Positions 8,401 to 31,944 of a stretch of DNA of 64,000 nucleotides are shown in pieces. The DNA is taken from assembly GCA_023954375.1 (NCBI GenBank), contig JAMLIC010000041.1:1-64000 (forward strand). The letters are read 5' to 3'. The notes beneath the pieces are model-generated. The model ran no database searches and was not told the origin of the DNA. It saw only the letters and a program-made list of their open reading frames with translations. A program made the translations under genes and the position numbers. Positions within the stretch are counted from its first letter, which is position 1; every line of letters begins with the position of its first letter. This DNA comes from Planctomycetota bacterium. GTDB lineage: Bacteria; Planctomycetota; J058.

Positions 8401-9162
8401 TCAGCCCGTCTCGCCGAGCGCCCAGGAGGCGCGCTGGCGCACGATGACGTCGGGGTCGGACGAGGCGACCCGCTCGAGCGCCGGCCGCGCGGAGTGCAGG
8501 ACCCCGCCCTCGCGCCGCAGCGCCTCGAGCGCCATCAGGCGCTCCGGGCGCGGGGCCTGGGCGTCGGCGGCCACCCGGAGGAGCCGCCGCTCGGCCGCCG
8601 GGTGCTCCCGGTGCGCCCCGAGGCGGCCGAGCGCGCCCATGCGGAACGAGCGGAGCTCGTCGCCCGACGCGCCGCAGGGGCGGTCGAGGAGGCGCTCGAG
8701 CAGCGCGATCGCGCGGTCGGCCGGAAGGGATCGGGTCACCTCGTCCAGGGCCGCCAGCCGCCGGCCGAGGTCCGGCTCGCGCCGCACGGCCTGCTCCAGG
8801 CGGTCGAGGCGCGCCCCCTCGATCTGCAGGGCCTCGAGCTCGAAGGCGCGCTCACCCTGCGGACCGCCTCGGGTGAGCCCGGCGACGTGGACGACCGGCG
8901 AGGGCCGGCCGGGCGCGGGCCCGGAGGACTCGCGCGTCGGCGCCGCCCCCGGCGCGCCGCCGCCCGTGGCGAGGGCGACCAGGGAGGACCCCGCGCCCGG
9001 GAGCGGCGCCCGCGCGACGACCACGCGCCGCGCCGGCGCCTCGTGCTCGTGCAGGAGGACGGAGGACGACACGAGCGCGGCGGCGCCCGCGAGGCCCGCC
9101 GCCGCCGCCCCGCGGAGGACGAACCGCCGGCCGACCCGCCCGCGCCCCCCCCGCCGCGGCAT
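8401..9162 (-). CDS. Exported or anchored HEAT-like protein (last gene of the giant-protein operon)
   Basis: A 253-residue protein. The N-terminus is Arg-rich (PRRGGRGRVGRRFVLRG) followed by the hydrophobic stretch AAAAGLAGAAALVSSSVLL; this may be a membrane anchor or a Tat-like signal (GRRFVLR resembles RRxFL). Residues ~55-110 are low-complexity Pro/Gly/Ala linker, and the C-terminal ~140 residues are helical and Arg/Leu/Glu-rich with HEAT-like periodicity, ending in 'SSDPDVIVRQRASWALGE', a typical HEAT B-helix pattern. It starts at ATG 9162, which shares one base with the TGA of the lipoprotein gene (TGATG), so it is translated with the operon. It could be a scaffold in the envelope; nothing catalytic is visible. 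Confidence 0.75.
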   Translation of the reverse strand: MPRRGGRGRVGRRFVLRGAAAAGLAGAAALVSSSVLLHEHEAPARRVVVARAPLPGAGSSLVALATGGGAPGAAPTRESSGPAPGRPSPVVHVAGLTRGGPQGERAFELEALQIEGARLDRLEQAVRREPDLGRRLAALDEVTRSLPADRAIALLERLLDRPCGASGDELRSFRMGALGRLGAHREHPAAERRLLRVAADAQAPRPERLMALEALRREGGVLHSARPALERVASSDPDVIVRQRASWALGETG

Positions 9163-11810
9163 CAGTTCACGCTCCCGGGCACGAACTCGACGTTCAGCTT
9201 GAGGAGGAGGGTGCGCGCGTCGGGGCCGTCCAGCGAGTTGAAGGTCATCGTGTAGACGCCCGGGCGCAGCAGGTGGCTGGTCTCGATCGTCCCGTCGCTC
9301 GGGCGGTAGACGACCTCCAGCGACGCCGGGTCGACCTCCGCCTGGAACTGCACCCCGGTCGGCACCTCGCCCTCGTTGAACCGGGTGATGATGGCGTTCA
9401 CCCCGACCTCGAACACCGGCGTCGTGCGGAAGCGCACGCGGGCGCGCCCGGGCAGGACGAACATGACCTCCGACTTGGTCTGCGCCAGGTCGAAGGGGAT
9501 CACCTTGGCGTTCTGCACGAGCCCCGCGGCCGGCGCCAGCGCGGTCGGCTCGTCGCGCGCGTCGAACAGCTGCTCGACGCGCACCGCCTGCGTGAGCGAC
9601 GGGTCCCCCGGCTGGCGGGGGTTCACGCTGATCGTCAGGTCGAACGAGGCGCCCGCGCCGCCGATGTCGCTGTCGTCCAGCAGCGCGTTCGAGACGATCA
9701 GGTAGAAGACGAGCTGGTTGGCGTTCGCCGCCACGGGCAGGTAGAGCAGCGCCCCGCGCCCGAGCGCGCTGTCGTCGGAGCGCGCGACCGGGCGCCCGGT
9801 CGAGTCGAGGAGCTCCACGTGCGGGTCGAAGAAGCTCGTGCGCACGAGCACGAGCAGCTGGCTCTCGTTGAGGGTCAACCCCGTGCTGGGGATCTCGAAG
9901 CGGAAGACGCGCTGCTGCCCCTGCTGGATCGAGCCGGTGTTCACCGGGCGCTGCGTGACCGGCTCGAGGCGGGCGAAGTCGCTCGGGCGGAACGTCGGCA
10001 GCAGCACGCCGTTGTCGAACGTCGCGGTCGACTGGTTGTACAGCCGCGTGTAGTTGGGCGCGCGGCGCACGTTGTTCTGGTCGTTCTCCGGCGTCGCCCC
10101 CGCCGGCGGCGTGATGCGCACGAAGCTCGTGAAGCGCAGCGGCAGGCCCGCGATCCGGCCCTCGTTCGGCGTGGCGACGTCGAGCACGTAGGTGGCGCGC
10201 GTCTGCTGCAGGGCCGACGCCGGGAAGACGACCGTCTGCCGGTGGAGGATGCGCCCGCCCGTGGGCAGGGTCGCCGCGCCGGCGCGCTGGGCCGCCGTGA
10301 ACAGGGCGGCGATCGTCGCGGTGGCGGGGTCCCCGGCGCGGTCCCAGAAGAGCCCCACGACCGCCCGCGCCGCCGTGCTCGCGTCGACCGCCTGGATGAG
10401 GCCGTTGACGGTGGTCGTCGGCTCGACGACCGCCGTGACGGTGGTCCCCGCGACCGTGAGGACGATCCCGCTGCCCCCGGCGCCGCTCGGGTCGAGGACG
10501 AGCGTCCCGCCCTGGGCGACGTCCGCCGGGTTCACGAACAGGCCCGCCACGGTCCCGTCCGGATCGTGGACCCCGGTGGGCGGGCGGAACTCGTCGGTCG
10601 TGTTCAGGACCACGTCGACCGTGAGGTTCGTCGGCGCCGCGACCGCCGCGCCCAGGTTCGTCACCGTGAGGTTGCACACCGTCGTGGCGTCCGTCACGGC
10701 GGCGATCGGCGCCTCGAAGGAGACCGGCGCGAAGTCGAGGTCGGCGGGGGTGCCCGGCGCCGGCGCGTTGGGCGCCGGCATCCCGCCGAACGGCGCGCAC
10801 AGCTGCACCGGCGTGATCATGAAGGCGACGTTGTCGCCCGTGACCACGTCGCCGGCGATCTCCAGCGCGAGGACGAGGTAGTACTGGCCGGGCCGGATGA
10901 GCACCTCGCCGGACTGCTGGACGGCGATGAGCGTCTCGGGCGGCGCCTGGTTGGCGCTGGTGAAGCGCCGGGCGCGGGACACCTCGACCGCGCGGGGGAG
11001 CGCCTCCCGCCGGATGAGCAGCGACGTCGGGTCGACGCCCTTGGTCCGGGACAGGTACATGCTGACGGTCGAGCCGGCCGTCAGGGTGTCGGTCCCGTGG
11101 TTGAACACGGTCCAGCGCACGTTCTCGGCCCCGCGCCGCTCGACGCCGTTGTTCGACGCCCCGAGGCGGAGCGCGGCGGCCGTCTGCGCGGCCGGGCTGC
11201 CCGCCGTCGGAGTGGCCCCGGTCGGGTTGACCACCACCGCGGACGCCGCGCCCGGAACGCCGGAGCGGAGGACGTACTCACGGACGGCCGCATCGAACGT
11301 GCAGCTGAAGTCGGCGTAGGCGGCCGCCGGCGCCGCCCCGCTCGGGTTCAGCAGGCGCACCTTGGCCTGGATCTCGGCGGCGACGGTGGCGCCCGTGGAC
11401 GCCGCGTCGAGGGTGACCGTCTGCGCCGGGTCGCCGTTGACGGACAGGACGAGCTGGGCGCCGCCGGTCACCGAGGTGGCGGCGCCGCGGTCCGAGCGCG
11501 ACTCGCCGTAGCCGTCCGGGAAGCGGACCTCCTGCACGGGCAGCCCGGTGCGACCCTGGGCGTCCTGGGTCGGCGTGGCGCCGATGACGAGCGTCGCCAG
11601 GGTCGGCGCCTCGATCGCCGCGAGCGCCCCGTCAGGGGCGGTCGTGCGGACCTTCGACGTCTTCTCCTGGGTCGCGATGACGCCGATCGCGGCGCCGAAG
11701 TAGGCGGCGCCGCAGCCGCCGAGGCCCAGGGTCAGGACGCCGAGGAGCAGGAGCCGGAGGCGGGGCTGGGTCATCATGCAGTCCGTGGGGTTCTCCGTGG
11801 GCCGGCTCAC
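9162..11810 (-). CDS. Large lipoprotein with modules shared with the giant surface protein
   Basis: About 882 residues. The N-terminus RLRLLLLGVLTLGLGGCGAAYFG is a lipoprotein signal with lipobox LGGC. The chosen GTG start at 11810 has a GGGAGG ribosome-binding site and overlaps the giant gene's stop (GTGA); an ATG-ATG 33-36 bases further in would give a shorter signal peptide. Residues ~100-210 hold one copy of a ~85-residue module found four times in the giant protein. Repeated Ig-like or CARDB-like beta domains follow (for example VRWTVFNHGTDTLTAGSTVSMYLS and VCNLTVTNLG), then a segment like pre-peptidase C-terminal domains (VELLDSTGRPVARSDDS, FYLIVSNALLDDSD), and a C-terminal beta domain (GVYTMTFNSLDGPDARTLLL). 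No enzyme motif is seen. It probably sits in the outer membrane and works with the giant protein. Confidence 0.85.
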   Translation of the reverse strand: MSRPTENPTDCMMTQPRLRLLLLGVLTLGLGGCGAAYFGAAIGVIATQEKTSKVRTTAPDGALAAIEAPTLATLVIGATPTQDAQGRTGLPVQEVRFPDGYGESRSDRGAATSVTGGAQLVLSVNGDPAQTVTLDAASTGATVAAEIQAKVRLLNPSGAAPAAAYADFSCTFDAAVREYVLRSGVPGAASAVVVNPTGATPTAGSPAAQTAAALRLGASNNGVERRGAENVRWTVFNHGTDTLTAGSTVSMYLSRTKGVDPTSLLIRREALPRAVEVSRARRFTSANQAPPETLIAVQQSGEVLIRPGQYYLVLALEIAGDVVTGDNVAFMITPVQLCAPFGGMPAPNAPAPGTPADLDFAPVSFEAPIAAVTDATTVCNLTVTNLGAAVAAPTNLTVDVVLNTTDEFRPPTGVHDPDGTVAGLFVNPADVAQGGTLVLDPSGAGGSGIVLTVAGTTVTAVVEPTTTVNGLIQAVDASTAARAVVGLFWDRAGDPATATIAALFTAAQRAGAATLPTGGRILHRQTVVFPASALQQTRATYVLDVATPNEGRIAGLPLRFTSFVRITPPAGATPENDQNNVRRAPNYTRLYNQSTATFDNGVLLPTFRPSDFARLEPVTQRPVNTGSIQQGQQRVFRFEIPSTGLTLNESQLLVLVRTSFFDPHVELLDSTGRPVARSDDSALGRGALLYLPVAANANQLVFYLIVSNALLDDSDIGGAGASFDLTISVNPRQPGDPSLTQAVRVEQLFDARDEPTALAPAAGLVQNAKVIPFDLAQTKSEVMFVLPGRARVRFRTTPVFEVGVNAIITRFNEGEVPTGVQFQAEVDPASLEVVYRPSDGTIETSHLLRPGVYTMTFNSLDGPDARTLLLKLNVEFVPGSVN
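11225..11475 (-). repeat. Shared ~85-residue module, copy in the lipoprotein
   Basis: Pattern: a beta-strand pair (LVLSVNGDPAQTVTLD), a helix with 'TVAAEIQAKVRLL', a strand 'AYADFSCTFDAAVREYVLRSG' and a final 'ASAVVV'. The same order occurs four times in the giant protein. Borders are approximate. Confidence 0.6.
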
Positions 11811-11935
11811 GCGCGCCTCCCGCCCCGCGCCGCGACGAGGAGCGAGGCGAGCAGCAGGAGCGCCAGGCCCCCGCGGCCGGGGCCGCCGCGCCCGGCCGCG
11901 AGCGCGCAGCCGCCGGACGACTTCTTCTGGAAGGC
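11807..11935 (-). other. C-terminal Cys-TM-Arg sorting tail of the giant protein
   Basis: The last ~40 residues read SSGGC, a Gly/Arg-rich spacer, a hydrophobic segment LALLLLASLLVAA, then RGGRRA. This tripartite layout (conserved Cys, membrane helix, Arg cluster) is the design of MYXO-CTERM and related Gly/Cys sorting signals that are cut by intramembrane proteases. No such protease gene is in the window. Confidence 0.6.
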
Positions 11936-14900
11936 GCCGTCGACGAGGGCCATGTCCTGGCCGCCCGTGACGAGCAAGGCGGCCGTCGCCGGCGCGCTCG
12001 CCGTGACGATCGCGCCGCTCTGGTCGCGCACGACCGCGCGCACGGCGAAGCGGTACCAGCCCGGCGCCCGGAGCCGCAGCCGCGGCTGCGCGTCGCCCGC
12101 CGTCGTGTCGAGGAACACCGGCGAGCCGTCGAGCTGGGTCCACAGGTAGCGCACCGTCCCGCCGCCGGTCGTCGACGCGGCGGCCGAGAGCGTCGTCTCG
12201 GCCTCCTGGACCCCCGGCGCGAGGGCGATCGTCGTCGGCCCGCTCACCGTGACGACCGGCGCCTGGAAGGCCGCGTCGTCGACGCCGAACGCCACCTCGG
12301 TGACGTCGGCCACGCCGTTGGCATCCACGACCCGCAGGCGGAACGCGTAGACCCCCGGCGCCTGCGGCGATGCGGTCGCGGAGGCGCTCGTCTCGCCGGA
12401 GAGCGCGCAGGGCGGGCCCAGCACCTGCTCCCAGCGGTAGGTGACGGTCCCCGGGGCGCGGCTCACGCTCGACGAACCGTCGAGCTGGACCGACTGGCCG
12501 GCCGCCGCGCGGGCGGGGGCCGTGGCCACCGCCGCGGGCGGCCCCTGGCCATCGCTGCTCTGGGGGAGGACGGGGAGCTTCAGCGCCGCCGGTCGCGAGG
12601 CTAGGCCCGCGCTGTCCTCGACCGTGAGCTCGAGCTCGTAGAGGCCGGTGACGACCGTGACCGCGAACACGCCGCCCTTGCGGGACGTGAAGGCGAACGG
12701 GCCGCCGACCTGGCGCCACGTGTACTCGGAGATCACGCTCGTCGTCGACTGGCTCTGCGTCCCGTCGAGCATGACCGTGTCGCCGCTGCGCGCGAACCCG
12801 ATCACCGCGGCCGAGGTGCCGTCCGGCAGCCGGAGGCGGGCGACGTCGCGGCCGGCGGGCGGTCGGACGTAGCCCTTCGCCACGACGGCCCCGCCCGCGA
12901 TGACCTCGAAGCTCACCAGCCCCGTGCTCGACGGCGCGGGGTCGGCGGGGGCGAGGTAGGCCTCGAGGGCCTTCTCCTGGCCGTCGTCGAGCACGACCGT
13001 CGTCGGGGCGCTGGCCGGCGCCTGCGCGAGGAACACGGCGCGCCGGTGCCCGACCAGGCGCGGCCGCGCGACGGGGGCCGCGCGGGGCGACGGGACGAGG
13101 TCGTCGACCACCATGACGGACACGTCACGGGGCGCGCTCTCGACGCCGCCCGCGCCGCGGACGACGAGCCGCAGGCGGTAGAGCCCTGGCACCGGCGGCG
13201 TGAACTGGACGGTCGCCCCGGACACGGACAGCGGCACCGGCGTGGGCGACGCCACGGTCGACCACTGGAACGTGAGCGACCCGGGCGGCTGGCTGAGCGA
13301 GGCGTCGATGACCACCGGCTGGCGCGCGCGCCCGGTGAGGTCGGGGCCCGGGTCGGCGTAGGGCACGCCGACCCCGTTCGACACGAGGCGCGTGGTCGAC
13401 GGCGACGCCGTGGTGGGGATCGCCGGCGCCGTGGCCACGTAGAGCCTGATCGTGAACACCCCCTGCTCGGGCGGCGAGAACATGGGCGACGCCAGGGAGG
13501 CGTCGTCGAACGCGGTCACCACGGTCGTCCCGTCGGCGCGCGCCGCCGTCCACAGGTAGTTCAGCGTCCCCCCGTTGGGGTCGAGCGACTGGGTCCCGTC
13601 GAGCCGCACCGGGCCGTTGACCACGAGGGGGTTGGGGCCGGCGATGATCGCGATCGGCGGCTCGTCGGTGATGCGCACGCGGAAGTCGCGCACGACCTGC
13701 CCCTGCCCGTCGGTGAAGGCGTTGGGCAGCGGGTCCCCGGCGTCGTCGACGACCGTGACGATGAGGCGCAGGTTGTAGTCGCCCGGCGCCGTGACCCCGA
13801 GGATCCGCGCGAGCGGCGAGGTGTGGTCGGCGGTGGTCTGCCCCGGCGGGTTGCCGTCGCCGTTGTCGATGGTCAGCGTACCCGGGTCGGTGGTGCCGGT
13901 CTGCTCCCACCGGTAGCGCACCCGGCCGCCCGTGGTCAGGAGGGGGGGGAGGCTCTGGCTCGCGTCGAGGAGCACGTCGCCAGGCGCCGCGCGCAGCACC
14001 CCGTCGACCGTCCCGTCGTCATCGAGCACGACGGCGAAGCGCGCCGAGAGGTCCGACACGTTCGTCGACTCGGGCAGCGCGCGCGGCGCCGCGGCGCGGT
14101 CCTGCACGAAGCCGCCGTCGCCGGCGTCGATCCAGGCGAAGCGGGGCATGGCCGTCCCGGCTCCGGGCACGTTCGTCAGGCGGACGTCGATCCGGCCCCC
14201 GGAGACCACGACGTCGGAGTGGGTGCGGCCGGCGAGCAGGTTGAGGACCCCGTCCTGCGAGAGCACGATCAGGTCGTCCAGCGGCCGCGCCTGGCCGCTC
14301 GAGAGCGCGCTGCCCTGGTGCGAGGTCGCGTTGTCCAGGCCCAGGTTGGCCGACGCGTCCTGCGGCGTCCCGGTCGCGAGGACCTCGACGCGCGACGACG
14401 GGTCGGCGTTGCCGGCGATGAGGACGAGCTGCTGGCGCGGGGCGTCCCAGAGCGCGGTGAACCCGCTGTAGGCCGGCTGCAGCGACGGCGACTGGCTCAC
14501 GATCTGGCGCACGACCGTCTGCAGGCGCTCGGCGATCGCGCGGCCGCGGTCGTCGATGCTCGGCGTCGTGCCCGGCGTGACCGTGATCGAGAGGCTGAAC
14601 AGGCGCGGCGTGTCGCCCGACAGCTGGAGGCGGAGCTGGTCGGACGTGCCGGCGACCACCTCCATGGGCGGCCCGACCGTGGAGACGGCGAAGCCCGCCT
14701 GGGCGTCGCCAAAGCCCTGCCGCTCGAAGCCTGCCGCGCCGAGCCCGAGGTGCGCCGCCCCGTTGTTCCCGCCCTGCGGCGTGACGACCACCCGGGAGGA
14801 CGCCCAGTCCAGCACGAGGCGCGCGCCGTCGTGCTGCAGGCCGACGCCGGAGCGCAGCAGGAAGCGGCCCGTCCGCGCGTCATAGGTCGCGGTGAAGTTG

Positions 14901-17900
14901 TCGTAGGCGCGCTGCTTCAGCGGGTTCGCGGCGGTGAGGCCGCGCACGCCGGCCTGGATCGCCGCGGCGATCGAGGTCCCCGTCTGCACGTCCCCCAGGG
15001 CGATCGCCTGCGGGGCCTCGCCGTCGATCGAGATGAGGAACCCGTCGTTCACGGCGGCCGTGGTCACGTCGCCGGCCCCGAAGGCGCCCTTGTGGAAGCC
15101 CGCCCCCGCGCCGAGGCCCACGTCCTCGCTGAAGACGAAGCGCATCAGGTCGACGTTACCGTCGCCGTCCGTGTCCTCGCGCGTGACGTTCACGAGCGCC
15201 GGGACCGCGCCGTCGCGGATCTCCCCCTGGCCGTTCACGTTCGTCCGGGTGACCGTGTCCAGCGGGCGTCCGCCCGTGTTCGGGTCGCCGCGCAGCCCGC
15301 CGCTCAGCGGGCGGGTGTAGGTGAGGGTGAGCCCGTCGACGGAGGTGGTCGGCAGCTTGCCGTTGAAGAGCACGTCGATCGTGTCGTTCGACACCACGGT
15401 GCTCAGGAGCGAGGCCGAGCTCCCCCGGAGGGTGACGGTCTGGCCGCCCCGGGTCTGGGTGAGCTCGAACTGCCCCGCCGCCCCGGCGATCGAGTTCGGG
15501 TCGGCGCCGAGCGTGAACACGAGGCGCGCCCGGTCGATCTTGCCCGCCCCGTCATCGAGCATGGTGACCGACGCGATGGCGAAGTCCGGCTCGAGCACCC
15601 GGTAGTTCTCCGAGCGCGCCGTCACCGTGCCGCCGTTGATCGTGAGCGAGGCGTCGAGGAAGTGGATGTCGGCCGCGACCGCGTGCCGCACCGTGAAGGC
15701 GAGGACGCCCGAGGCGAAGTCCACGCCGCCCACGGGCGCAGGCGACACCGCGCCGTCCCGCCCGTTCGAGCCGGCGCCGACGAGCTGAAGGCCGGCCGTC
15801 GTGGCGGCCCCCATGGCCACGCGCGAGGTCGGCTGGGCCGGCTTCGTCGCCGCGCCGCTCACGAGCAGGTAGCGGGAGAACTCGGGCAGGAAGAACGCGT
15901 CGAAGCGGATCGTCGCCTCGCTGGTGGCGATCGTCTGCTCCCGGACCGCCTGCCGGATGCGGGAGGCGACGTCCGCGCCCGTCGAGGCGTTGGCGAACGG
16001 GAGCTGGGCGATCACCAGGCCGTTGAGGTCCGTGAACTCGAGCTGCCCGCTGTTCACGAGCGTGGCCGCCCCCTCCGCCGAGAGCCGGAAGCCGAGGCCG
16101 CCGACGTAGTTCGTGCCCTCGTCGGTGACGAGCGTGTCGAGCGTCGAGGTCGAGTCTCCGTACTGGATGTTGTGGAACGCGTCGACCGCGAACACGCGGA
16201 CGGGGAACTCGACGCCCTCGACCTGATCCTGCGGGGAGCCCTGGAAGACGGGCTGCCCGGTCTTGGCGCCGGTGTTGAGCGTCTGGCCCGGGAGGACGAT
16301 GACCGCCTTCGCCACCGCCGCCGGGTCGATCCGGATGGGCCTCGAGCGGTGCGCCGTGATCGCGCCCGGGAGGTCGTCGGTGAGGCTCGCCGGCTCGATG
16401 TCGAGGACATGCTGGAGCTGCGCCCGCGTGAGCGTGATCGTCCGCGCGAGCGTCGCGGTGGCCATGGGCGTGCCGGCGGCCGGGAAGCCGCCGTAGGTGT
16501 GGGTCGGCTGGAAGAACGCGGTCGAGCCGGTGAAGTCGTACTCGAAGACCGAGTTGTTCGGGTCCGACGTCGTGATGCGCGCCCGGCGGTCGCCGGCCGG
16601 CTGCATCTCGTGCAGCAGGACCGGGTTCGACAGCGCGTCGGTCACCGCGACCGTGATCGTGACGTTGTCCTCGCCGGCCGTCGCCCGCAGCGTGCCGCCG
16701 CTGAGCGTCAGCGAGCCGGGCGGGTCACCGACCGCGCTCTGGCCGGCGTTGAGCGTCTCCACGCCGCCGCCGCCGGTCGCCACGCTGACATAGACGATCC
16801 CGTGGGCGGGCGCGCCCGGCTTCACATCGAAGCGGTCCGTGGGCCGCAGCGTGGGCGTCGTCAGGTTCGGCACCGGGTTCTGGGGGGTGATCTGCAGGAA
16901 GTGGCCCGACCGGTTGAGCGTGAGGAAGCTCACGTTGCCGGTGTCGCCCTCGGTCACGGCGAACGGCCCCGCCGTGCCGCCGCCCGGCAGCGAGAAGGAG
17001 ATCTGCCCGGTGTAGTCGACCGGGTTGTTGTGCTGGTCGACCACGTAGGCGCGGACCAGGAACCCGGCGCCCGCCGTCTGCAGCGGCGGCGTGCCGGAGA
17101 GCGGGGTGGTCGCATCGCCGCGGCGGATGCGCTGCGAGGGCGGCGCCACCACCAGGACCACCCCGGCCGCCGCGCCGGGCACCGCCTGGTAGTTCGAGGC
17201 GCCCTGCTGCGTCACGCCGCCGCCGCCGAACGAGGCGCCGGTGGGCGCGATCGAGACCGTGTGGTTCAGGATGACGTTGAGGTCGTTCTCGTCGCGCGGC
17301 AGCGGCGGCTGGCCCGTGTTGTGGGCCGCCTGGCGCGCCGTGAGCGCGAAGGAGAACACGCCGTTCACGAACGTGCCGGACGGGTGCACGTCGAACGGGT
17401 CGGTGGTGTTCACGGTGACGTTGTCGCCGCCCGGGCCGGCGGTGACGTTGTTGCCCGAGTCGAGCAGCAGGACGCGGCCGTTCACCGCCGTCCCGACCGT
17501 CAGCACCCGCGTGTTGGTCGACCCCTCGACGCCCGGCGAGCCCGGGGTCGAGCTCGTCATGCCGTCGATGCGGTACATCGGGACGACCCGCCAGGAGTCG
17601 CCCGCCAGCCAGAGCTGCGCCCGCGTCGGGTCGGCGCCCTGGAGCGCGTTGAAGGTGAGCTGCGTCGTCGTGGCCGCCGTGATCCGGCCGTAGGCGCCGC
17701 CGTTGGTCGTGTTGACCAGCACCATGCCCACCATGTCGGCGCTGAAGGGCGTGCCGGCGCCGACCTGGAGGGTGGTGGCGGTGCCCGTGTCGCCGACGCC
17801 GAACGTGCCGGTCGCCGCGTCGGCGTGGTCGAAGATGTACTCGACCCGCTTGACGCCATCTGTCACGACGCGGAAGGTGCGCGTCGCCACGCCGGCCGGG

Positions 17901-20900
17901 GTCGCGAAGCCGCCGGTGTTGCTCACCTGGAGCGACCACGATGCGGGGGTCGCGCGGGTCGCCGGCGGCGCGGTGAGCCCCGTCACCGTGCGGCCCTGGA
18001 CGGAGAACTGGACGCGGCCGGTGCCGTCCCACGCCTGCCCCTGCGGCCCCTGGGTGCCGAACGGGTCCGTGCTGAGCACCGAGGCGGTGCTGCCGGCGAC
18101 GCTCGTCAGGCGGTTGTTGTTGGCGTCGAGGACGACCACCGTCCCCGCGAGCGCCTGGTTGGGGGCGATCGCGGGGTTGACGATCGCCTGGACGATCGAG
18201 GGGTTCCCGCCCGCGCCGTTGGGCGTCCCCTCGACGAGCAGCTCGTCGGGCACGCCCAGCCCCAGGCCGCGGTAGAGGAGCGCGACCTTGGTGCCGGCGC
18301 CCGGGTTCAGGGTGATCGGCCCCGACGTCGCGGTGACCGAGCCCGACGTCGCCGTCACGGTGACCTGGAGGCCGTTGGCGACGCCGCGGTAGGTGAGGCC
18401 CAGGCCGCCGGCGCTCAGGTTCGCCACGCCGTTGGTCCAGCCCGCGCCGGTGATCTGCGTCGGGGTGAGCGTGGGCGCGTTGCCGGGCGGGAACGGGTCG
18501 ATCGCGAAGCGGTCGGGCGTGCCGCCCGCGACGTAGGCGAGCGGCGCGATGTCGGTGGTCGTGACGACGCGGGTCACGCTGTCGTAGGCCACGATCACCG
18601 CGTCCGTCTTGAACGTGCCGCCGTTGTCGAACAGGTGCACGGTCCGCCCGACCACCGCCGCGGTCACGGCGGGGTCGTTGGTGGTGAACGTGGTCGAGGA
18701 GGCCGGGCCCTCGACCAGCAGCGTCCCGACCGTCGGGACCCGCGAGGCCGCGGCGACGCTCACGGTCAGGTTCGTCGTGCCGTTGAAGGTCGTGTTGACG
18801 TTCCCGGAGACGTCGACCGCCGTGAGCGTGTTCGTGCCTGCGAACGGGGCCCCGTTCTGCTGCACCCCGGCGACGCTCCACTGGAAGGCGGTGACGGTGC
18901 CCGGTCCGATCGGGACCTCGACGCCGCCCCGGGCGGGCAGCCCCGGACCCCCGCTGCCCACGCGGACGCCGCGGTGCTCGAACTGGCCCAGGCCCGTGTT
19001 GATGACCGGGCGGAAGATGATCGTCCCGCCCGCCGGGATCTGCCCGGTCCAGCGCCACCCGTTGGCCGCGCCGCCCAGCGTCGAGTTGATGCTGAACGTG
19101 CCGCCGGCGGCGGTGAACTGCGTCCTGAGGATGTGCGGCTGGTCGTTGTTGACGCCGCCGTTGCGGTTGGTGTTCGCGACGTTGTCGCCGACGCTGAAGC
19201 GCCAGGTGAGCGGGTCGAGGCGCACGAGGACGTCGAGCACGTCCGTGTTGAGGACCAGCGTGTTGTCGGCGTTCGCGCCGAAGCGGAACCCGGGCGCCTC
19301 GAGCGTGATCGCCTGGCCGTTGATCCCGACGACCTTGGCGACGGCGCCCGTGCGGCGGTTGACCAGGATGACGTTGTCGGGCGTGACCGCGGCCGTCGGC
19401 ATGCCCGTGTAGGTGAGGACGAAGGTGGTCCCGTCGTACGCCGTCGCCGTGCCCTGCATGTGGTGGGCGTAGGTGATGAGCCGGACGTCCTCGCCCTCGG
19501 TCGTGTACGTGTTGATCGTGTTGCCGGCCACGTCGCGGGCCACGAGCTGGGAGCCCGCGCTGTTCGCGTTCCACGCCGTGTCGTTCGTCTGCCCGACGTC
19601 CCACCGGACCAGCGCGGTCGCGTCCTGGAACCAGAAGTGGTCCACCGCGCCGGCGCCGATGCGGATGTTGTCGGTCGTGGTGGCGCCGCCCGGGTTGGCG
19701 GCGTTCGTCACCGACCCGAGGATCGGCCGGAGGGTGGTCCCGGTGGTGTTGAGGTTCGTCGTCCCCGTGTAGTTGCTCGTCAGGACGAGCTGGAGGTCGC
19801 CGGAGATCGAGGCGACCTCGTACAGGGTCCCCGGCTGGCTCGCGAACTCGATCCGCTCGCCCACGACCACCTGCGTCGTGAACTGGGTGGCCGCGCCGTC
19901 GACGACGTTCGACCCGTTGGTCACGGCGACCGTCCCGGCGAGGGCGCCGATCGTCCTGCCCGGCGTGACGCGGCTGACGTCGACCTGCAGCTGCACGTCG
20001 CCGTTGATGCCGAAGTAGCGCAGGTCGGCCTGCGGCGAGGGGCCGAGGCGGAAGGTGCCGTTGCTCCAGGCGAAGGCGCCGGCGCCGCCCTTGTCCAGGC
20101 GCACACGACCGAGGAGCGGCGCGCCCGCGCCGGGGTCGGTCGCGCCGAAGTTCAGGCGGCACCCCGGATCCGACGGGTTGATCGGCATGACGTAGACGAG
20201 CTCGGGCGTCGTCCCGGCGTGGGTCGTCAGGTCGAACCCGCTCCCGGCGATCGGGGTGTTCGGCCGGGCCTCGTACGTCTCGCCCGCCGCGCCCAGGCGG
20301 TTGTGGAACGCGTCGTGCGCGTGGACCTCGTAGGTGCCCAGGGGGTCGAGCGGCTGGCTGGGCTGCTGGACGAGCGTGTTCGAGAGCGCCCAGTGGAAGT
20401 GGGCCAGGGCGCCGGGGCGCACGGTGAACGCAGGGTTGGCGACGGGGTTGGCCGGCGGCGCGAGCGTGACCGGGATGAGGTTGGTCTCGACGCCGCCGGT
20501 CGACACGAGGACCGCGCGCAGGCTCTGGCCGTTGTTCTGGCTGCTCCGACCGTTGAAGCGCATGTTGGCGATGTTCGCCGTGTTGCCGGTGAACGCCGCG
20601 CTCTGCAGCAGGTTGGTGCCGCCCGCGCCGAACGCCACGGCGTCGGACTGGCTGGGGTCGGCCAGGGCATCCAGCTTGGGGAAGTCGACATCGCTCACGA
20701 CGTCGACGCGGATGCCGCCGGTGACCGCCGGGACGTCGCTGGCCTCGACGGCGTTACCCGCGGCGTCGAACAGCCGGAGCTGCCACGGCCCGACCCCGGC
20801 GGGGCCGAGGCCCGTCGGCGCCGCCGAGTCGTTCAGCGGCCGGCCGGCGTGGAGGATCCGCCCGTTCAGGCCGACCCACTCCACGTGCAGCGGGTCGCCG

Positions 20901-23900
20901 GCGTCGACGTTGTAGGTCGCGCCCTGCACGGTGACCGGCGCGCCATCCACGGTCACGCCGATGGTGATCGTCTGGGACCCGTCGGCGAGGGCCGCGCCGC
21001 GGTACTCGGGCGAGATCGTCGCCACGCCGTTGGTGAAGCGGGCGCTCGTGGCGCTCGTGCCGCCGCCGTCGGGCAGGCCGGTGAGCAGGTTCGTGGCCGA
21101 GAACGGCGCCCCGACCGGGGTCGGCGAGGTCGCCAGGCCGAACACCGCCCCGGCGCCGACGTCGTTCGTCGGGTTCCCGTAGCGGTCCTGGGCCTGCGCC
21201 GAGCCGGTGCTCGGCTGCGCCACGCGGAAGGTGGTGAAGCCCTGGAGCGTGACGCGCGACACCTTCGCCGGCGTGAACACGACCGTGTTGTCGACCCCGT
21301 CGACCTGCGAGGAGACGAGCGGGAGCTCGGCCAGGGTCAGGACCTCGAACGTGTTCCCTGCCCCCGGGGCGCCGCCGCGCGTCACCGTCGCCGCGCCGTC
21401 GTTGGTCCCGTTGTAGGCGAACGTCAGCGTGAGCTCGGTGTTCGAGGTCACCGTCTGGACGACGTAGAACACGCCGGGCTCGCTCGAGAACTCGATCCAG
21501 TGCCCCTGGAGGAGGTCGCTCTGGAACGAGGTGCCGGCGCCGGTGACCGTCGACGAGCCGTTCACGACGTTCACGGTCCCGGTGAGGACTCGCACGGCCG
21601 GGGCCAGCGGCTCGGTGATCGTGATCGTCGTGGCGGTGTTGGCGGCGATCACCGCCCGCCGGCCGACCGCCGGGCCGTCGCCCGTGAACAGGATCGTCTT
21701 GCCGACCAGGTCCCCGGGCGTCCAGTCGGCGCCGGCGGCGGTCTTGGTGATGACCAGCGGCGTCCCGGTCGCGGACTGGACGGCCCGCGGCGAGTTGGCC
21801 CCGTCCTGGCTCGCCACGCGCACCGACAGGCGCATGGGCCGCCCGTTGTTGTGCCCACCGCCGTACCGCAGGACGTTGCCCAGGTTCGTGGTCGCGCCGG
21901 GCGGGAGGAGGTCGACGTAGTCGACGTCCGGCGTCGCCTCGACCATCACGTCCGGCACCGGCGTCGCCGCGGGCGCCTCGTAGCTCAGGCGCGGCCGGTC
22001 GAAGCCCGGGTTGAAGGTCGACGCGACCCGGATGCGCAGGAAGCGCGCGGGCGAGCCGATGTTCGTCGTCGGGTTGCCGCCGGCATCGAGCAGCTCGACC
22101 GCCGCGCCGGTGGGGAACAGGCCGTCGATCCGGTAGATCGCGGCCGGGTCGCCGGCGGTCGCCGCGGACCCCTGCCCGTCGACGAGCTTCAGGGCGTCCA
22201 TGAGCGTCGTCGGGCCGGAGACGTCGACGAACGAGCCCACCGTGCTCGCGCCGGCGGTCGCGTCGACGCCCGAGACGACGACGTACCGGTTGCCGCTGAA
22301 CGCCACGCGCGCCTGGCTGTACGCCTTCTGCAGGGGCGCCGAGCTGGCGGTCATCTGCCGGATGGCGGTCTGCAGGGCGGCGGCGATCGCCGGGCCGTCG
22401 CTGGTGATCGCACCGACGACCATGCTGGCCGTGGGCGCGGGGTTGTCGCCGTTGAGGGCGACGGTGAAGCTGTAGGAGCCCGCGGGGATCGACGTGGCGG
22501 GCGCGCTGCCGCTCACCCGCCGCCCGAAGGCCGAGGCGAGCGTCCACTCGACGCGCGCGGCCTGGCCGGCGGCGAACGTCACCTGGAGCGGCGGCGTCGG
22601 CTGGAAGTTCGTCGTGTCCACCGTGGTCACGTGCCCGTCGTCGCTGGCCCGGTGCACGTGGAAGAAGGCGTCGCCCGCGGGCCCGACGAACCGGGCGGCG
22701 GTGCCCACGAGGTTGAAGGTGCCCGCGCCCGTGTCGAGCTGAGCGCCGTCGATCTGGTCGCCGCCGCCGCCCAGGTTGATGATGCTCCCGCGCGCGACCT
22801 CGTCGGCCGCGCCGGTGGTCGGCCCCGTCCGCGGGAGCACGCGCAGGTTGGGCGTCGTGCCCGGCGTCGGCGGGCGGTTGCCGTCGGCGTCGACGGCCTG
22901 GAGGAGCAGGCTCCCGGTGAACGGCGCGTCGACGGTCTGCTGGCCCACGCTCGCCGGCCAGGCCACCTGCGTGAAGTTGCCCGGGATGACCTTGACGACG
23001 TTGCTCCCGGCGGCGCCCGCGAGCGTGAGCGGCGTCCCGCCGATCGTGGCCGTCAGCGTGATGTTCGCCGTGTTGAAGCCCGGGGCGGCCTCCACGCCCG
23101 TGAGCCGGCCGCGGAAGCTCATGAGGTCGAGCACGACCTGGCCCGTGGCCGAGATCGCGCTCGTCGGGATCTGCGGCACCCCGCCGTCCCACTGGAGCGT
23201 CGCCCCGGCGCCGGTCTGTGCGCTCGTGAAGCTGACGTCGATCGGCTGCCCGCCGGTGTTGGTGGTCTCGTTGCCCGCCGCATCGAGGAGCTGGATGCGG
23301 AAGGTGTTCGGCCAGGCCAGGCGGTTGCGGACCGAGCCGACGGTCACGTTCTCGAAGCGGACCTGCGTGGCCGGGCCGCCGGTGATGGCGAACTGGGCCG
23401 ACGTCCCGCCGAGGTCGACGGGCACCGGCGAGCCGATCCCGGCCGCGACGACCTCGGGGTAGCGCTGGTAGCTGACCGTGCCCGCCGCGCTGCCGTTCGG
23501 GAAGGTGATCGTCCCCGCGACCTCGTCGATCACGAAGGCGACGCCGGTGCTGACCGTGACCGAGCCCGGGACGACCACGGGCGGCTGACCGTTGACCGAC
23601 GCCAGGGTGATCGTGTCGCCGTTGCCCTGGGCGCCGAACGGCTCGTTGTTCACCGCGACGGCGGCGCCCGGCGCGAGGACGACCACCTTCACGGTGTGGT
23701 TCGACGCCGCGTTGGCCGTGTTGCGCACGTGGCGCAGGGTCAGGGTGCGCGTCGCGGGCGCCAGGTCGGCGGGGAGGTTCAGCGCGATGACGGCGCGGCC
23801 GTCGCTCGTCCCCTGCTCGAGGGTGATCAGGGCGGGGTTGCCCACGCCGGTGAGCGAGAAGTCACCGACGGCCGAGAGGTCGAAGCCCGGGTCCGAGTAG

Positions 23901-26900
23901 CGGACGAGGAGGCGCGCGTCCTGGGCGATCGCCGAGGTGGTCGTGAGGTCGATCGGGTGCGTGGCGTCCGTGTTGCCGGCGGTCGCGGGCGACGGGACGA
24001 CGAGCACGTTCGCCACCTGCCCGGGCTGGACGATGAACCGCGGCGGGAAGGTCCCGGGCACGGCCGGGGCCGCGTCGATCGGCACGTTCAGGGCGTCGCG
24101 GGTCTCGACCGTCACCTGGTGCTGGCGGTGGCGGTTGGTCGAGTTGGTGAACCCGGTCAGGGCGACGAAGTACGTGCCGGGCGGCAGGCTCGAGCCCAGG
24201 TTGTCGCGCTGGCAGGAGAGCACGCCCGCGGCGAAGGAGAAGTTGGTCAGGTTGAGCCCGGGGCTGCTCGCGCCCGCATCGAACCCGGGCGCGCCGTTCG
24301 CCCACGCGTCGGCGCCGGCGTCGTACGTGAACACGAGGCGCGCGTCGGCGGGGAGGCGCGTGCTGGTGGTGAAGGTCACCGTGTGCTGCGCGCCCGCGGC
24401 GCCCGACCCGGCCGGGTTCAGGACGACGGTCGTCACCGTCGCCTGGTCGCCCACGAGGTTGAACGGCGGCGAGGAGTCGTTCGGGCCCTCGATGATGCTC
24501 CCCGGCGTCTGGTCGGCGCCGCCATAGCTGTGGGTCGACATCGCCAGGGCGTAGCTGCCCTTCGTGTCCACGTTCACCGCGCCGGCGGCGGCCGCGATCG
24601 TGATGCGGTGGAGGATCGGCGTGATGCCGTCGCCCAGGACGCCGACCCCGTCCTTGCGCGAGATGACGAGGGTGCTGTCCGAGCCGTCCGCCGGGTCGAG
24701 TCGCATGACCGCCCCCGAGAGCGGCACGAAGCCTGCGCCGAGGTCGACCTCCCACAGGCCGACCGCGCCGCCGAGGACCTGGCTGTCGAGCGCGCTCAGG
24801 TCGAACGTGACGCTGTTGTCGAGCGGGCTGCGCGGGAAGACGACCCGCACCTGGCCGTCCGACGGGATCTGCGTGAGGCTGCGGAACTGGAGCGTGTAGC
24901 CCGAGGGCTGCGCCGCTCGCGTCTCCGTGGGCGACGCGGTGACGTTCGTCAACTGCGCGCCCGAGAGCGAGAAGTTGGGCGTGTTCGTCTCGGCGAGCAC
25001 GCGGTCGCCCGCGGCGAGCACGGCCGGCGGGCCGCCGCTGCTCTGGCGGTACATCGACACCGTCGCGAAGAAGTCCGTGCCCTCGTCGTTCGAGTTCACG
25101 ACCTGCCGCAGGGTCAGCGAGTGGTTGCCGGCGGGCAGGTCGGCGGCGCCGATGTATCGGATCCACAGGATCGAGCCGTCGACCGCGTTGCCCGGGTCGA
25201 GCAGGACCTGCAGGTCGGCGTTCGGGACGGTGGCCGCGTTCACGGTCCAGGTCAGGTTCGTGGCCGGGTCCGCCGCGACGTTGGCGAAGCTGAAGGGGCT
25301 GGTCTGGGCGTTGCCCTTCTGCAACTGGACGCGGATGACGTGCGCGGGCGAGCCGCGGACGATGACCGGCGTGCTGAAGGTGATCGTGTGCGTCGAGGCC
25401 GCGCCCTTGGCCGGGGGCGAGACGGCGTCGGCCAGGCTCTGCGGGCTCGACTCGACGATCGTCGCCGGGCCCGAGCGGTTCTCGTCGGCCCCGGTGAGCT
25501 GGGGCGGGTCGATGCGCCACAGCGTCTCGAGGACGTCGACCTCGCCCCCGGTCAGGGCGTTGACGTCGACGACGATGTCGAAGGCGCCGGGGACGGTGCA
25601 GGGGATCGTGACGCCCGCCTGGGTGTCCGCGACCCCCACGACCTGGCCGATCTGCGCGCTCGCGTCGCGCCCCTGGTCGCGGTACGCGGTGATCGTCCGG
25701 TTCCCGGCCGTGCCCGTGACCTCGAGGTAGATCGCGCCGGTCAGGTCGGTCCCGTCGAACACCTGGCCCGCGGCGATCGAGGTGCTGACGAGCGTGAGCC
25801 GCCCGCTGGCGCCGAAGGTCCGCAGCCGGGGGCGGAGGGAGGTCGCCGGGTTGCGGAACGCCTCGATGCGGTAGCGCGTGTCGCCCTTGAGCGAGGTGTT
25901 CGTCACGACGTCCACGAGCTGGATGGCGTGGCGCACGGGGCTCGTGTCGCCGTTGGCGCCCAGGAGCGGGTCGCGCTCGAGGACGAGCCCCGTGCGGCTG
26001 ACGCCCGCCGAGGTCGAGCGCTGGATCGCGCGGATGCGGTAGCCGCCGTCGATGCCGGCCCAGGTGATCGCCTCGCCGGCGCCGCCGGTGAAGGTCGAGG
26101 CGGCGGTCAGGCTGTTGGCCAGCTTGACCTCGGCGTCCTCGAAGAAGAGCGTCACGAGGCCGTTGGCCGGCAGGGTCGAGCCCATCTGGAACGTGAACGT
26201 GTGGGTCGAGCTCTGCTGGTCGGCGGCGGCCGGGGCGACCGCGTAGGTGACGCTGCTCGCGGCGAAGCCGGCGCCGTCGACGTCGACCTGCGGGAGCGTG
26301 CCGCTCGGCCACGCGTCGACCGTCACGCCGTTGCCCGTGTTGAGGGTGCGGACGGCGGCGACCTGGTGGGTCGCGACGACCGTCGTGTTGCGCACGTTCG
26401 AGAGCGCCAGGCGCAGGAAGGGCGTCGTCGCGGCGTCGATCGTCGCCGTCGCGACGAGGCGCACGGTCAGGTTGTCGGGGAGGAGCGAGACCGTGTAGTT
26501 CGTCGTGGGCGTGTACGGCCCCCCGCCCGCCGCGGCCGTGGAGAGGACGACGTGCGTCCCGGGCGTGGTGCTCACGTTCGAGACGTTGAACCCGAGCGGG
26601 AACGTGACCTCGATGGCGTTGCCCGTGACCACGTCGGCGTTGAGGCGGAAGTCGAACGTGTAGGTCGTCGCGCTGGACCCGGCGGTGACGACCGGCCGGG
26701 GCGCGCCAGGGGGCGGCAAGGGGCTGGACAGGGCCACGTTCGTCAGGTCACCGCCGGTGAGCGTCACGCCCGCGCCCGCCTGGGCGTCGAGCGCCGCGTA
26801 GCCGCTCGCCTGGTCGTCGAGCGTGTGCACCCGGAGGCCGCTGGCCGGGTCGAACGTCTGCGCCTGGCTGGCGTTGCGCACACCCGTGACGGTGAGGTCC

Positions 26901-29900
26901 CACGCGCCGTGCGCCACGTCGGTCGCGCCGCCGTGGGTGATCGTCAGCACGTTGCCCGCGCCGCTGACGGTGGGCGTGAAGCCGCCCGCGGGCGCGGTGT
27001 TGACGGTCAGCCCCGCGGACGACACGTCGGTGTTGCCCGGGAACGTGACGATGATCCGCCCGCCGGTCGTCCCGCCGAGGCCCGGGAGGCGCGACTGCGT
27101 GTTGAACGTGACCCGGTAGCTCGCCCCGGCCGCGCCCGCGAGAGGGTTCGACAGGTTCACCAGCGTCACGCCGGTCACGGCGCCGCCGGTCGTCCGCACC
27201 ATGTTCGCGGCCGAAGCCGTCTGCGCCGACTGGTCGATCGTCGTCGCGCCGGCGGTGCGCGTCTCCACCTGCACCGGGAGGTCGCGGTTACCCCGGCGAG
27301 GGTTGGCGATCGCGTTGGTGAAGGTGAGCGTCATCGTGCCCGGCGTGAGGATGTTGCCAGTGCCGGCGGTGCGAGTGATCGTGATGATCGGGTCCGCCGT
27401 CCCCGGCGCCGACTTCGCGATCGAGAAGTTGCCGATGACCTGGGCGCCGTTGCTCGACGCCCAGCTCGTGTTACCGCCGCTCGCCGCCGAGATCGCCGAC
27501 AGGTCGATCGTGCCGGTCGGGTCGAAGAGCTGGAGGCGCACGACCCCGTCGTCCGGGATGTCCGACTTGGTCACGAACTGCACGACGTAGGTCGTCGAGG
27601 CCCCTGTCCCCGTGGCGCCCTGGGTGAGCGACGGGACGAGGATCGGGTCGGTCGAGGCGACCGTGTGACCCTGGATCGTGATCGCCTGCGCCGGGGTCGG
27701 TCCGTCACCCGCCGTCGTCGAGATCGTCGCCACGTAGTCGCCCGGGAGCGGCGGGTTGGCGCTGATCGCGCCCGTGAGCGTGATCCTGTGGAACCCGGCC
27801 TCGACCGGCGTCGTGCCAGTGTTCCGGATGATCAGGTCCTGCCCGTTGACCTCGAAGTCCGCCGTCACCAGGGCGCCCTGAGCGGCCTGGCGGATGGCGG
27901 CCTGCGCCGCGTCCGGGTCGAGGTACACGGGCGGCGTCGTGACGCTCGAGCGCGGGTCCGTTCGCCACGTGCCCGTCAGGCCGGCGTGGAGCACGAACCC
28001 CGACGGCATCGAGACCACGATCGCCCCGTTGGGCGGGACCTGCGAGTGCGTCGACAGCTCGAACGTGGTCGTCGCGACGGCCTCGTACGTGCGCGTCGCG
28101 GAGAGGGTCGCCCGGGGGGCGTTGCTCGTCCCGGGCCCCTGGAGCGCCTGGCCGGCGATCGTGAGCGGCGCCGTGGTCGGGCCCTCGATCGTCGCCGGGG
28201 TCGTGTTCAGGAGCTGCACGGTGACGCCGGCGGACCCGGGGAGGGTGGACGTGGTCGTGGCGGACGTGGGGAAGTTCCCGGCGAAGCGGATGCGGCGCTG
28301 CGTGGCCCCGCCGGCGAGCGCTGCACCCGTGTTCTGGAAACGGAACACCATCCGGCCTGACGCGTCGAGCCGCAGCGAGTGCGGCTTGACGTTCGCGAGG
28401 TTGTCGAACGTGACCGGGACCGGCGTCGCCGTGATGTCCTCGTTCGCCGCCCCCCGCAAGTTGCGGGCGATCACCACGCTCCCGTTGACCCCGCTCGCAC
28501 CATTGGCGACGAGGTTGACGTACCCCAGGCCGCTCGTGGTGCCGACGGTGCCGCTGGCGAGGAGGGTTCCACCGTTGCGCACCTCGATCGCATCGGCCGC
28601 CACAGACCCGCCCCGGACATAACGGAGCGTCACCTGCCCGTCGGCGTTGGTGTTCGTCCCCGCCCCGCCCACGCCGTAGGTGGCCCCGAAGACGATCCCG
28701 CTCAGGCTCAGGCTCCGGAGGGTCGTGTTCGTCGCGGCCGAGTAGGTCCAGATGCTGTCCTCGATGGCCGTCGTCACGTCGATGAAGAAGTTCGTGTTGA
28801 TCGACTGCGTGTGCGTGAACTCCACGTCGTACTGGATCGGGGTGTGGGTGGGGACGGTGCCGACACGGTCGGTCCCGTTCAGGCTGGCCGGATCGCCCGT
28901 GACCACCAGGTTGCCCGTGTCCACGACGTTGAACGTGGGCGAGGCGGCGTAGCACTTGAGGTTGTTGCTGTTGTTGGTCCTGGTGATGTTGTGAAAGATG
29001 AAGATGCGCGCCCCGCGGATCTCGTAGTCCGGGAGCGTGACCGTGAGGGCGAGCGGAGACGCCATCGTACGGTTGTTGCCGTTTGCGGTGTAGACCACGG
29101 CGTTGGGCGTCGAACTGCCGAAGAGCGCGACCGGGGCCGGCGCCGACCCAGCTGGAGTGTTGTAGTTGTTGACGCCCGGCGCCGAGGTGATCGTAAAGCC
29201 ACCACCGAGATGTCCGAAGTCGGGCCCGAACGGAGGAAAGGCGATGACGAACTTGTCACCGCCGTCGAGGGTGAAGCCTTGCGTCCCCGTGAGGCTGAAG
29301 GTGACCGACGCCCCCTTGGGGAGGTTCGGGTACGTTCCGCCGGCGGTGACGGTGAGGCCGATCTCGTTCGAGCTCACCTCGGCCTTGAAGTCGAGCGAGG
29401 TGGTGTTGTTGACGAACGTCGGCCCCTGCGGCAGGTTCATGTGCGGCCGATTCGTGCCCGTCGAGTCGAGGACGTTCGTCCCCACCTGCGACCCCGTGAA
29501 CGGCGCGTCCCGGGTCTGCAGGTCGATCGTGTAGTTGCTCGCGGCGGCGGCGGGGTTCCGCATGTTGCTGATCGACACGACCATCGTGCGCCCGCCTGGG
29601 GTGGCGGTGCCGGTGCCGTCCCGGACCAGGTAGATCTTCTTCGCGGAGTCATCGACCGTCGTGGTGAAGCCGCCGTCGATCCCGCTCCACCCGGTCACGC
29701 TCGCCGTCCCGAGGCCGAACGTGTTGGCGCGGTTGTCGAAGGTCAGCTCGAGCGTCCCGTCGGCGGGGAGACCCGTCGTCGTGCGGAACGTGAAGGTGTA
29801 GGTGGGGATGGGGGTGCTCGCCGAGGCGCCAGTCGTCTGATACGTGCGGCGGAACACGGGCGATGAGTCGATCGAGAGGAGCACCCGGGCGTTCGCGTTC

Positions 29901-31102: not shown

Positions 31103-31944
31103 CACGACCTCCGCTCCTGGCCGGCCGCCTTGACCTCGAAGGAGGCCGACTCGCAATGCATCGGGAGCCCACGCAAGCCGACCCGGGCGTCAAGCGCGGG
31201 AGACGTGGCCACTACGTCGAGAGTGACCTCGCCCACCAAAGTCAGATCCACGACCGAGCCGTCGACGCCGATGCGCACGACGCGAGGGCAGCCGAACTGC
31301 GCCGGCGCTCCATCGCGCAGGGGAACGATGCGCACGGCGAACGGTACGCCCGGCTCCTGAACCTCCGGCGTCCCGACGGCCAGGCCGCCCTCGAGGCGCT
31401 GGCCAGGCAAGAGCAACACGACCCCGTCCGGCGGCGCGAGCCACGCGAGCTCCACCTCGGCGACCACGGCGTCGTCGTAGGAGATCGAGAGGCGTCCCTC
31501 GACGGGTCGGGTGGCCGTCAGCGGGAGGGCCAGGGTCCCGTTGGCGTCGAACGAGGCACCCGCCAGCAGTTCGCGGGCGTCACCGCCCGGGCGCGCGACG
31601 CCGCCCATCTCGAGCGTCTCGACCACCGGGCCACGAAGGAGCAGCCCCTCGGGGAGCGTCGCCGAGCTCACGGGAGCGCCCGAAGCCAGGTCACGTGCCT
31701 CGAGTAGGAGGACCAGCGGCAAGCCGGCGTCCGTGCGAGTTGGCAGCGCGCGCGCCGAGAGCGCGAAGGGCAAGGTCGGCCGCGGGAGGCGCGGCGTTTC
31801 GGCCACGGCTCCTGGCGGCTCTTCAGCCCCCCCCGGCTCCCGACCGAAGAAGGACCAGACGCCGAGGCCGCCGAGGAGGCCGACGGCCACGAAGATGGTC
31901 AGTACAGACCGAGCGGGCTGGCCGCTGCGGGCGTCGTCGCTCAC
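31102..31944 (-). CDS. Single-pass membrane protein, first gene of the giant-protein operon
   Basis: A 280-residue protein of unknown family. It has a short polar N-terminus (SDDARSGQPARS), one membrane helix (VLTIFVAVGLLGGLGVWSFF, residues ~14-33), a Pro-rich linker, and then a ~220-residue beta-rich domain with repeated short strands (for example GRLSISYDDAVVAEVEL and VVDLTLVGEVTLDVVATS), presumably in the periplasm. Two Cys residues near the C-terminus (QFGCPRVV, MHCESAS) could form a disulfide. GTG 31944 is chosen because a GGGGGGAG ribosome-binding site precedes it by 3-4 bases; the frame upstream is intergenic in composition. The TGA shares one base with the ATG of the giant gene (TGATG). 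It may anchor or guide export or assembly of the giant protein; no motif proves this. Confidence 0.8.
   Translation of the reverse strand: MSDDARSGQPARSVLTIFVAVGLLGGLGVWSFFGREPGGAEEPPGAVAETPRLPRPTLPFALSARALPTRTDAGLPLVLLLEARDLASGAPVSSATLPEGLLLRGPVVETLEMGGVARPGGDARELLAGASFDANGTLALPLTATRPVEGRLSISYDDAVVAEVELAWLAPPDGVVLLLPGQRLEGGLAVGTPEVQEPGVPFAVRIVPLRDGAPAQFGCPRVVRIGVDGSVVDLTLVGEVTLDVVATSPALDARVGLRGLPMHCESASFEVKAAGQERRS

Follow-up and report, generated by a model that had tools for sequence, protein, structure and literature searches.

A candidate tail-sheath-type inserted domain recurs in a giant secreted protein and a lipoprotein of one planctomycete operon

Introduction

In phage tail sheaths, extra domains are located at a distance from the tube, and a role in stabilising the virion or in adhesion to the host cell has been suggested for them (PMC9230969). 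In the Pa193 sheath protein gp32, residues 91-210 are described in a preprint (PMC11042391) as a flexible domain set in the sheath core. In the Vibrio phage XM1, the insertion domain (InD) of the sheath is reported to resemble domain D3 of FliD and is called unique to that phage (PMC10457771). DUF3383, the Pfam family (PF11863) to which we return below, is the seventh most frequent domain in flagellin hypervariable regions, with 24 cases, in a table from 2017 (PMC5595980). Here we describe, in a 64,000-nucleotide stretch of DNA from a Planctomycetota bacterium (GCA_023954375.1, contig JAMLIC010000041.1, positions 1 to 64,000 of the forward strand; hereafter the window), a module that is present four times in a giant secreted protein and once in a lipoprotein of the same operon, and for which sequence profiles and a predicted fold support homology to the inserted domain of DUF3383-type sheaths.

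Results

All five copies of the module are in frame on the minus strand. With the giant protein numbered along its open frame from a TTG at 31156 (6449 aa), copy 1 occupies residues 2888-3002 (22151..22495), copy 2 residues 5032-5136 (15749..16063), copy 3 residues 5365-5483 (14708..15064) and copy 4, in tandem with copy 3, residues 5498-5618 (14303..14665); copy 5 occupies residues 101-216 of the lipoprotein (11130..11477). A sequence-only reading of the window had placed five copies here, and each was found by a profile built from the other four and scored on the one held out, at 27.3, 13.0, 45.8, 28.7 and 40.0 bits for copies 1 to 5, against a best score of 6.1 bits among 100 block-shuffled versions of both proteins. 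The five copies in the window are thus beyond chance. The length of about 85 residues given by that reading proved too short: the limits set by an iterated profile enclose 105-121 residues, and the part that had been missed is C-terminal and often reads A-x-L-x-L-G. The other four copies are 27-41% identical to copy 3. Copy 2 is the most divergent, and as a single sequence it matches the other giant copies marginally (best E 0.042) and the lipoprotein copy at E 2.6e-4. Searched with one copy alone, the genome itself (10.1 Mb) yielded the lipoprotein copy at E 2e-9, and a five-row profile gave exactly these five places, and no sixth copy, at E ≤ 10 in its 115 contigs (150 of 247 candidates scored).

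The same reading had seen a likeness to phage tail sheaths, which holds in profile searches, in profile-profile comparison and in predicted fold. Of a wider set of 27 copies accepted at i-E ≤ 1e-3 (profile A2), three match DUF3383 in Pfam at E ≤ 0.1, the best at E 0.012, and a window copy reaches 13.7 bits against a cut-off of 34.9. The module was compared with an alignment of 11 DUF3383 rows, namely the AP22 protein and 10 phage stretches, several of them annotated as tail sheath; 12 stretches besides AP22 had been fetched, of which a cut gene (L115) and an unannotated one (L119) were left out. Profile-profile comparison gave a probability of 92% (E 6.8e-7, score 49) over a region just after residue 110, while none of 50 column-shuffled profiles exceeded 15.6 and reversal of the profile left a score of 12.2. 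When only the five window copies were used, the probability was 91.6%.

The fold was approached through an AlphaFold2 model of copy 3 (15 sequences; pLDDT 82.8, pTM 0.77), which is predicted to run strand pair, helix, strand pair, the order that had been read from the letters. Among 529 chains compared by VIA-align, the best match to the model was the Pa193 sheath at residues 103-211 (Z 9.5 over 101 residues), followed by the E217 sheath (8.6), the XM1 sheath (8.3), Vibrio cholerae flagellin (7.4) and the outer domains of FliD (6.4) and FlgK (5.1), where a Z under 8 possibly means a common arrangement only. Foldseek against viral models returned E-values of 2e-3 to 4e-3, the first hit being a tail sheath protein and the second unnamed. 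By sequence, the sheaths of Pa193 and E217 are related to the DUF3383 protein of AP22; profile-profile comparison and fold, each reached independently, therefore lead to the same inserted sheath domain. Homology of the module to the inserted domain of DUF3383-type sheaths is supported by both profiles and model. A search for DUF3383 in 149 Planctomycetota genomes had no match, and since control genomes had none either it is uninformative.

Beyond the window, the five-copy profile matched 11 of 98 genomes, the genome itself included, at E ≤ 0.01, and 87 had no match. In genomes of the same genus and family the module lies in orthologues of the giant protein and of the lipoprotein. Three other kinds of host, assigned by Pfam, were found: a tail sheath of the extracellular contractile injection system (eCIS) type (G058, E 4.8e-13), the carbon starvation protein CstA (E 5.5e-16 in G006, with the CstA of G005 also matched) and a flagellin (G047, E 9.5e-7). 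The A2 profile matched at least 16 of 392 Planctomycetota genomes at E ≤ 0.001, a lower bound because at most 11 candidates were scored per genome; within the class it matched 8 of 12 genomes. It added a second sheath (G127), a flagellin of G168 and a second flagellin of G047. The G127 sheath is near-identical to that of G058 and adjoins genes for tail tube, baseplate, Pvc16 and eCIS_core (L127, G127:C1, 10309-19279), neighbours which mark it as part of an extracellular contractile injection system. In this sheath the module is an extra insertion after a weakly matched sheath domain II. Weak A2 matches, which we do not count as proven, were to FlgK (G167), FlgE (G067, G133) and DNA topoisomerase III (G187), at E 3e-5 to 4e-4; the topoisomerase match (L131, 4157-7306; residues 724-786) is surprising, as this enzyme is cytoplasmic. 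The five-copy profile also had a match in G025 (E 0.003, one internal stop), which was dropped. A search of IMG/VR with one module copy found no relative, and in PHROGs 11 families were each matched by one copy of the 27 (best E 0.0017), none common to several copies, and were not used.

The flagellar likeness, also proposed from the sequence, stands in part. True flagellins of other Planctomycetota carry the module and the flagellin and FliD folds match moderately; the hook-protein matches are the weak ones just named, and the repeat family Flagellin_IN has no Pfam match among the 27 copies. Flagellin_IN (PF07196) was also tried as the parent family and rejected: hhalign against 30 planctomycete repeats gave 2.3% at a score of 16.5, with shuffles reaching 13.4. 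The G168 flagellin (L125, 5591-11896) is a protein of 2102 aa with seven module-like stretches (i-E < 0.05), long and short forms side by side, and may bridge this module and the shorter flagellar repeats.

Sequence comparison of related hosts, with empty and filled sites in CstA and in the lipoprotein, indicates that the module behaves as a plug-in. The CstA proteins of G003 and G004 (578-594 aa) match PF02554 from about 1 to 353 in one piece, and that of G006 (725 aa) matches it at 1-208 and 218-352 with the module in between. The loci with a filled site are L042 (G006:C652, 7837-10011) and L043 (G005:C603, 7214-8362), in the second of which the frame ends early, at 383 aa. In the lipoprotein, a stretch of 142 residues of the window protein, the module included, corresponds to 15 residues in G011, which belongs to another family of the same class and in which A2 finds no module. 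In the giant protein, alignment with relatives places copy 3 after the FSED strand of a host domain, and the two parts on either side of copies 3 and 4 are conserved in G001, G004 and G005. A bolder view is that the module is a roaming plug-in in Planctomycetota, repeatedly inserted in surface and membrane proteins that are otherwise unrelated (injection-system sheath, flagellin, CstA, giant protein and lipoprotein), and that its copies offer a common docking face for mutual recognition or for one partner; we consider this quite doubtful.

A tree of 31 copies, in which the G168 flagellin is represented by two of its seven stretches, places copy 3 with the first members of the tandem pairs in three relatives (86/92), copy 4 with the second copies of G001, G004 and G005 (95/80) and copy 2 with a copy of G007 (98/90), whereas copy 1 has no supported place, so that three of the giant protein's four copies have counterparts in relatives. 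The five lipoprotein copies group at 79/82, which is not firm. Recent duplication of the five window copies was considered and rejected, as a tree with these in one clade has p-AU 0.006, a result to be taken with caution in view of the long branches. From these groupings and this rejection it follows that the copies are mostly old and have been kept in place, without a recent burst.

The operon is read entirely from the minus strand. The gene upstream of the giant gene (31102..31944; about 280 aa, hydrophobic near the N-terminus, GTG start at 31944 picked by eye) ends in a TGA that overlaps the ATG of the giant gene in a TGATG junction. It has no match in NCBIfam, and its homologue in G007 adjoins the lipoprotein gene there. 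Because of this overlap the start of the giant gene (11807..31102) was set at the ATG at 31102, which gives 6431 aa with a signal peptide recognised by eye. After a gap of 29 nt the giant gene is followed by the lipoprotein gene (9162..11777; 871 aa, lipobox LGGC), and four orthologues of the lipoprotein are 38-43% identical. The last gene (8401..9162; 253 aa, HEAT-like by eye) overlaps the lipoprotein gene in another TGATG. The position of this HEAT-like gene varies, being 3' of the lipoprotein gene in the window, whereas in G001, G004 and G005 (L033, L035, L036) it separates the giant gene from the lipoprotein gene. Five relatives lie in named records, four of them Planctomycetota metagenome-assembled genomes and one named only as uncultured bacterium. 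Opposite the giant gene runs a plus-strand open frame of 5104 codons (13046-28360), most likely a by-product of coding sequence with high G+C content.

In the giant protein, residues 1-3200 have no Pfam match at E ≤ 1, and the N-terminal half (24000-31000) looks by eye like a series of long, degenerate repeats, each about 130-170 aa. Five PKD stretches lie near the C-terminus (PF22352, E 3.9e-36 for the C-terminal half), the best-scoring at 12293..12499. The protein ends in a tail of the sorting type (11810..11920), read from the sequence as SSGGC, a hydrophobic helix and an Arg-rich end, a pattern also kept in the giant proteins of G001, G004, G005 and G007. Such a tail recalls MYXO-CTERM, in which lipidation of the cysteine is proposed to precede cleavage by myxosortase (PMC11980579). 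In NCBIfam it gives a weak match that reaches the myxosortase tail of NF038112 (E 5.8e-4); because this is below cut-off, surface anchoring is an inference, and we call the giant protein probably surface-anchored. Neither protein matches a sheath family in the Pfam scan, hence neither has a sheath core. CARDB-like and PPC-like domains had been seen by eye in the lipoprotein; Pfam found neither and the claim was dropped.

The coupled operon, co-occurrence and an unbroken frame in two outgroup genomes suggest that the giant protein and the lipoprotein work together. Among the 12 genomes of the class, the lipoprotein profile matches nine (in some cases through the module alone) and the giant region six. 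In G010 (L046, G010:C1) and G011 (L151, G011:C356) the two proteins lie in one stop-free frame, with 106 and 79 residues, respectively, from the Cys-helix-Arg tail of the giant part to the lipobox; this may be a natural fusion or a frame whose product is cleaved. The two proteins may thus form one assembly. It is rather unlikely that the modules themselves bind each other and zip the two into it, an idea which would draw on the overlapping or close genes of operon partners, on the spread of five copies over both partners and on the single frame of the two outgroups. In those very outgroups no module was found in the lipoprotein part, so the partnership is independent of the module and needs none, and an identity of 27-41% to copy 3 does not suggest a common self-binding face. 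The sequence-only reading had taken the sharing of the module as a sign of co-assembly or of a common ligand; since sheath, flagellin and CstA also carry it without an obvious common partner, sharing alone says little for either.

Discussion

We consider it probable that the module is an independently folding α/β plug-in, homologous to a sheath domain and of the same general fold as flagellin and FliD domains, whose role is most likely that of an exposed spacer and contact surface. One insertion is in the lipoprotein and four are in its operon partner, the giant protein, which is probably anchored at the surface. The module would occupy a loop of a host domain, leave that domain intact, and provide bulk and protein-protein contacts in the way that the inserted domains of sheaths and flagella do. 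Exposure at the surface and a structural rather than ligand-binding role are what we would expect of such an element, and an outward spacer-and-contact role is suggested by analogy with sheaths.

Conservation is in keeping with a structural part. Over 111 well-filled columns of the 27 copies, the most conserved positions are glycines and hydrophobic residues, and a single column, a glycine, is invariant; because the conserved columns are mostly of these kinds, a structural module is favoured over an enzyme. Several results weigh against this explanation as a whole. On the module copies every Pfam family stays below its cut-off, and a tblastn search with two copies against 50,697 phage records found no relative. 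A sequence search of the PDB with the profile gave nothing credible (110 chains at E ≤ 10, best 0.0064 for a Dps-like ferritin, with many G-alpha chains over the helix; these we judged to be chance), and Foldseek against the PDB reached E 0.31 at best. When copies 3 and 4 were modelled in place (four sequences), the model was poor (pLDDT 54), with the same strand and helix order in both; nesting in the host domains of the giant protein rests, for this reason, on the alignment. Finally, some polar positions are moderately conserved, R41 in 74% of the 27 copies, Q37 in 67%, D62 in 65%, and R67 and S72 in 63%.

Because of these polar positions a binding role is still to be reckoned with. The module could be a carbohydrate- or ligand-binding domain by which the giant protein and the lipoprotein hold the same cell-surface polymer, which would suit a host that is secreted and rich in PKD domains, polar columns conserved at 63-74%, and the suggestion, in PMC9230969 as mentioned above, that additional sheath domains aid adhesion to the host cell. 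We think it unlikely, as the only invariant column is a glycine, with no invariant cluster of polar or aromatic residues, and the module also occurs in CstA and a tail sheath, for which no common polymer is in view. Far less probable still is that the likeness to sheaths is compositional or convergent, arising among Ala- and Gly-rich β-α-β segments of high-GC genomes. The weak Foldseek E-values and the poor tandem model would allow it; against it stand the 87 of 98 genomes that lack a match at the threshold given, the loss of the copies on block shuffling, the loss of the DUF3383 match on column shuffling or reversal of the profile, and the convergence of sequence and fold, independently, on one inserted sheath domain.

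Searches of the open-access literature, in which CstA was not a search word, turned up no paper that describes this domain in CstA, lipoproteins or giant planctomycete proteins. It is a known type of domain in new hosts, where its use appears to be undescribed. A domain hitherto seen on phage sheaths and flagella has been reused in proteins that are no appendages: a transporter, a lipoprotein and a secreted protein of more than 6400 residues. Because relatives have both occupied and unoccupied sites, insertion of the domain into CstA and into the lipoprotein can be tested directly. The two operon partners, moreover, are a conserved and unnamed pair that share one frame in some lineages, and the module provides an annotation handle for both.

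The closest described counterparts are the DUF3383-type sheaths, Pa193 gp32 and E217 gp31, which, like the module, show the order strand pair, helix, strand pair in a domain inserted in the core of its host. The folds match over about 100 residues, yet identity in the fold alignment is 14-17%, and these sheaths have a sheath core whereas the giant protein and the lipoprotein have none. InD of the XM1 sheath is likewise an insertion, at Z 8.3 in fold; it sits on a phage sheath, whereas the same predicted fold is met here in bacterial proteins that are not of phages. The outer domains of FliD and FlgK are matched more moderately, below Z 8. As for the DUF3383 domains reported in flagellins, planctomycete flagellins here too carry the module, which in addition is found in the giant protein, the lipoprotein and CstA.

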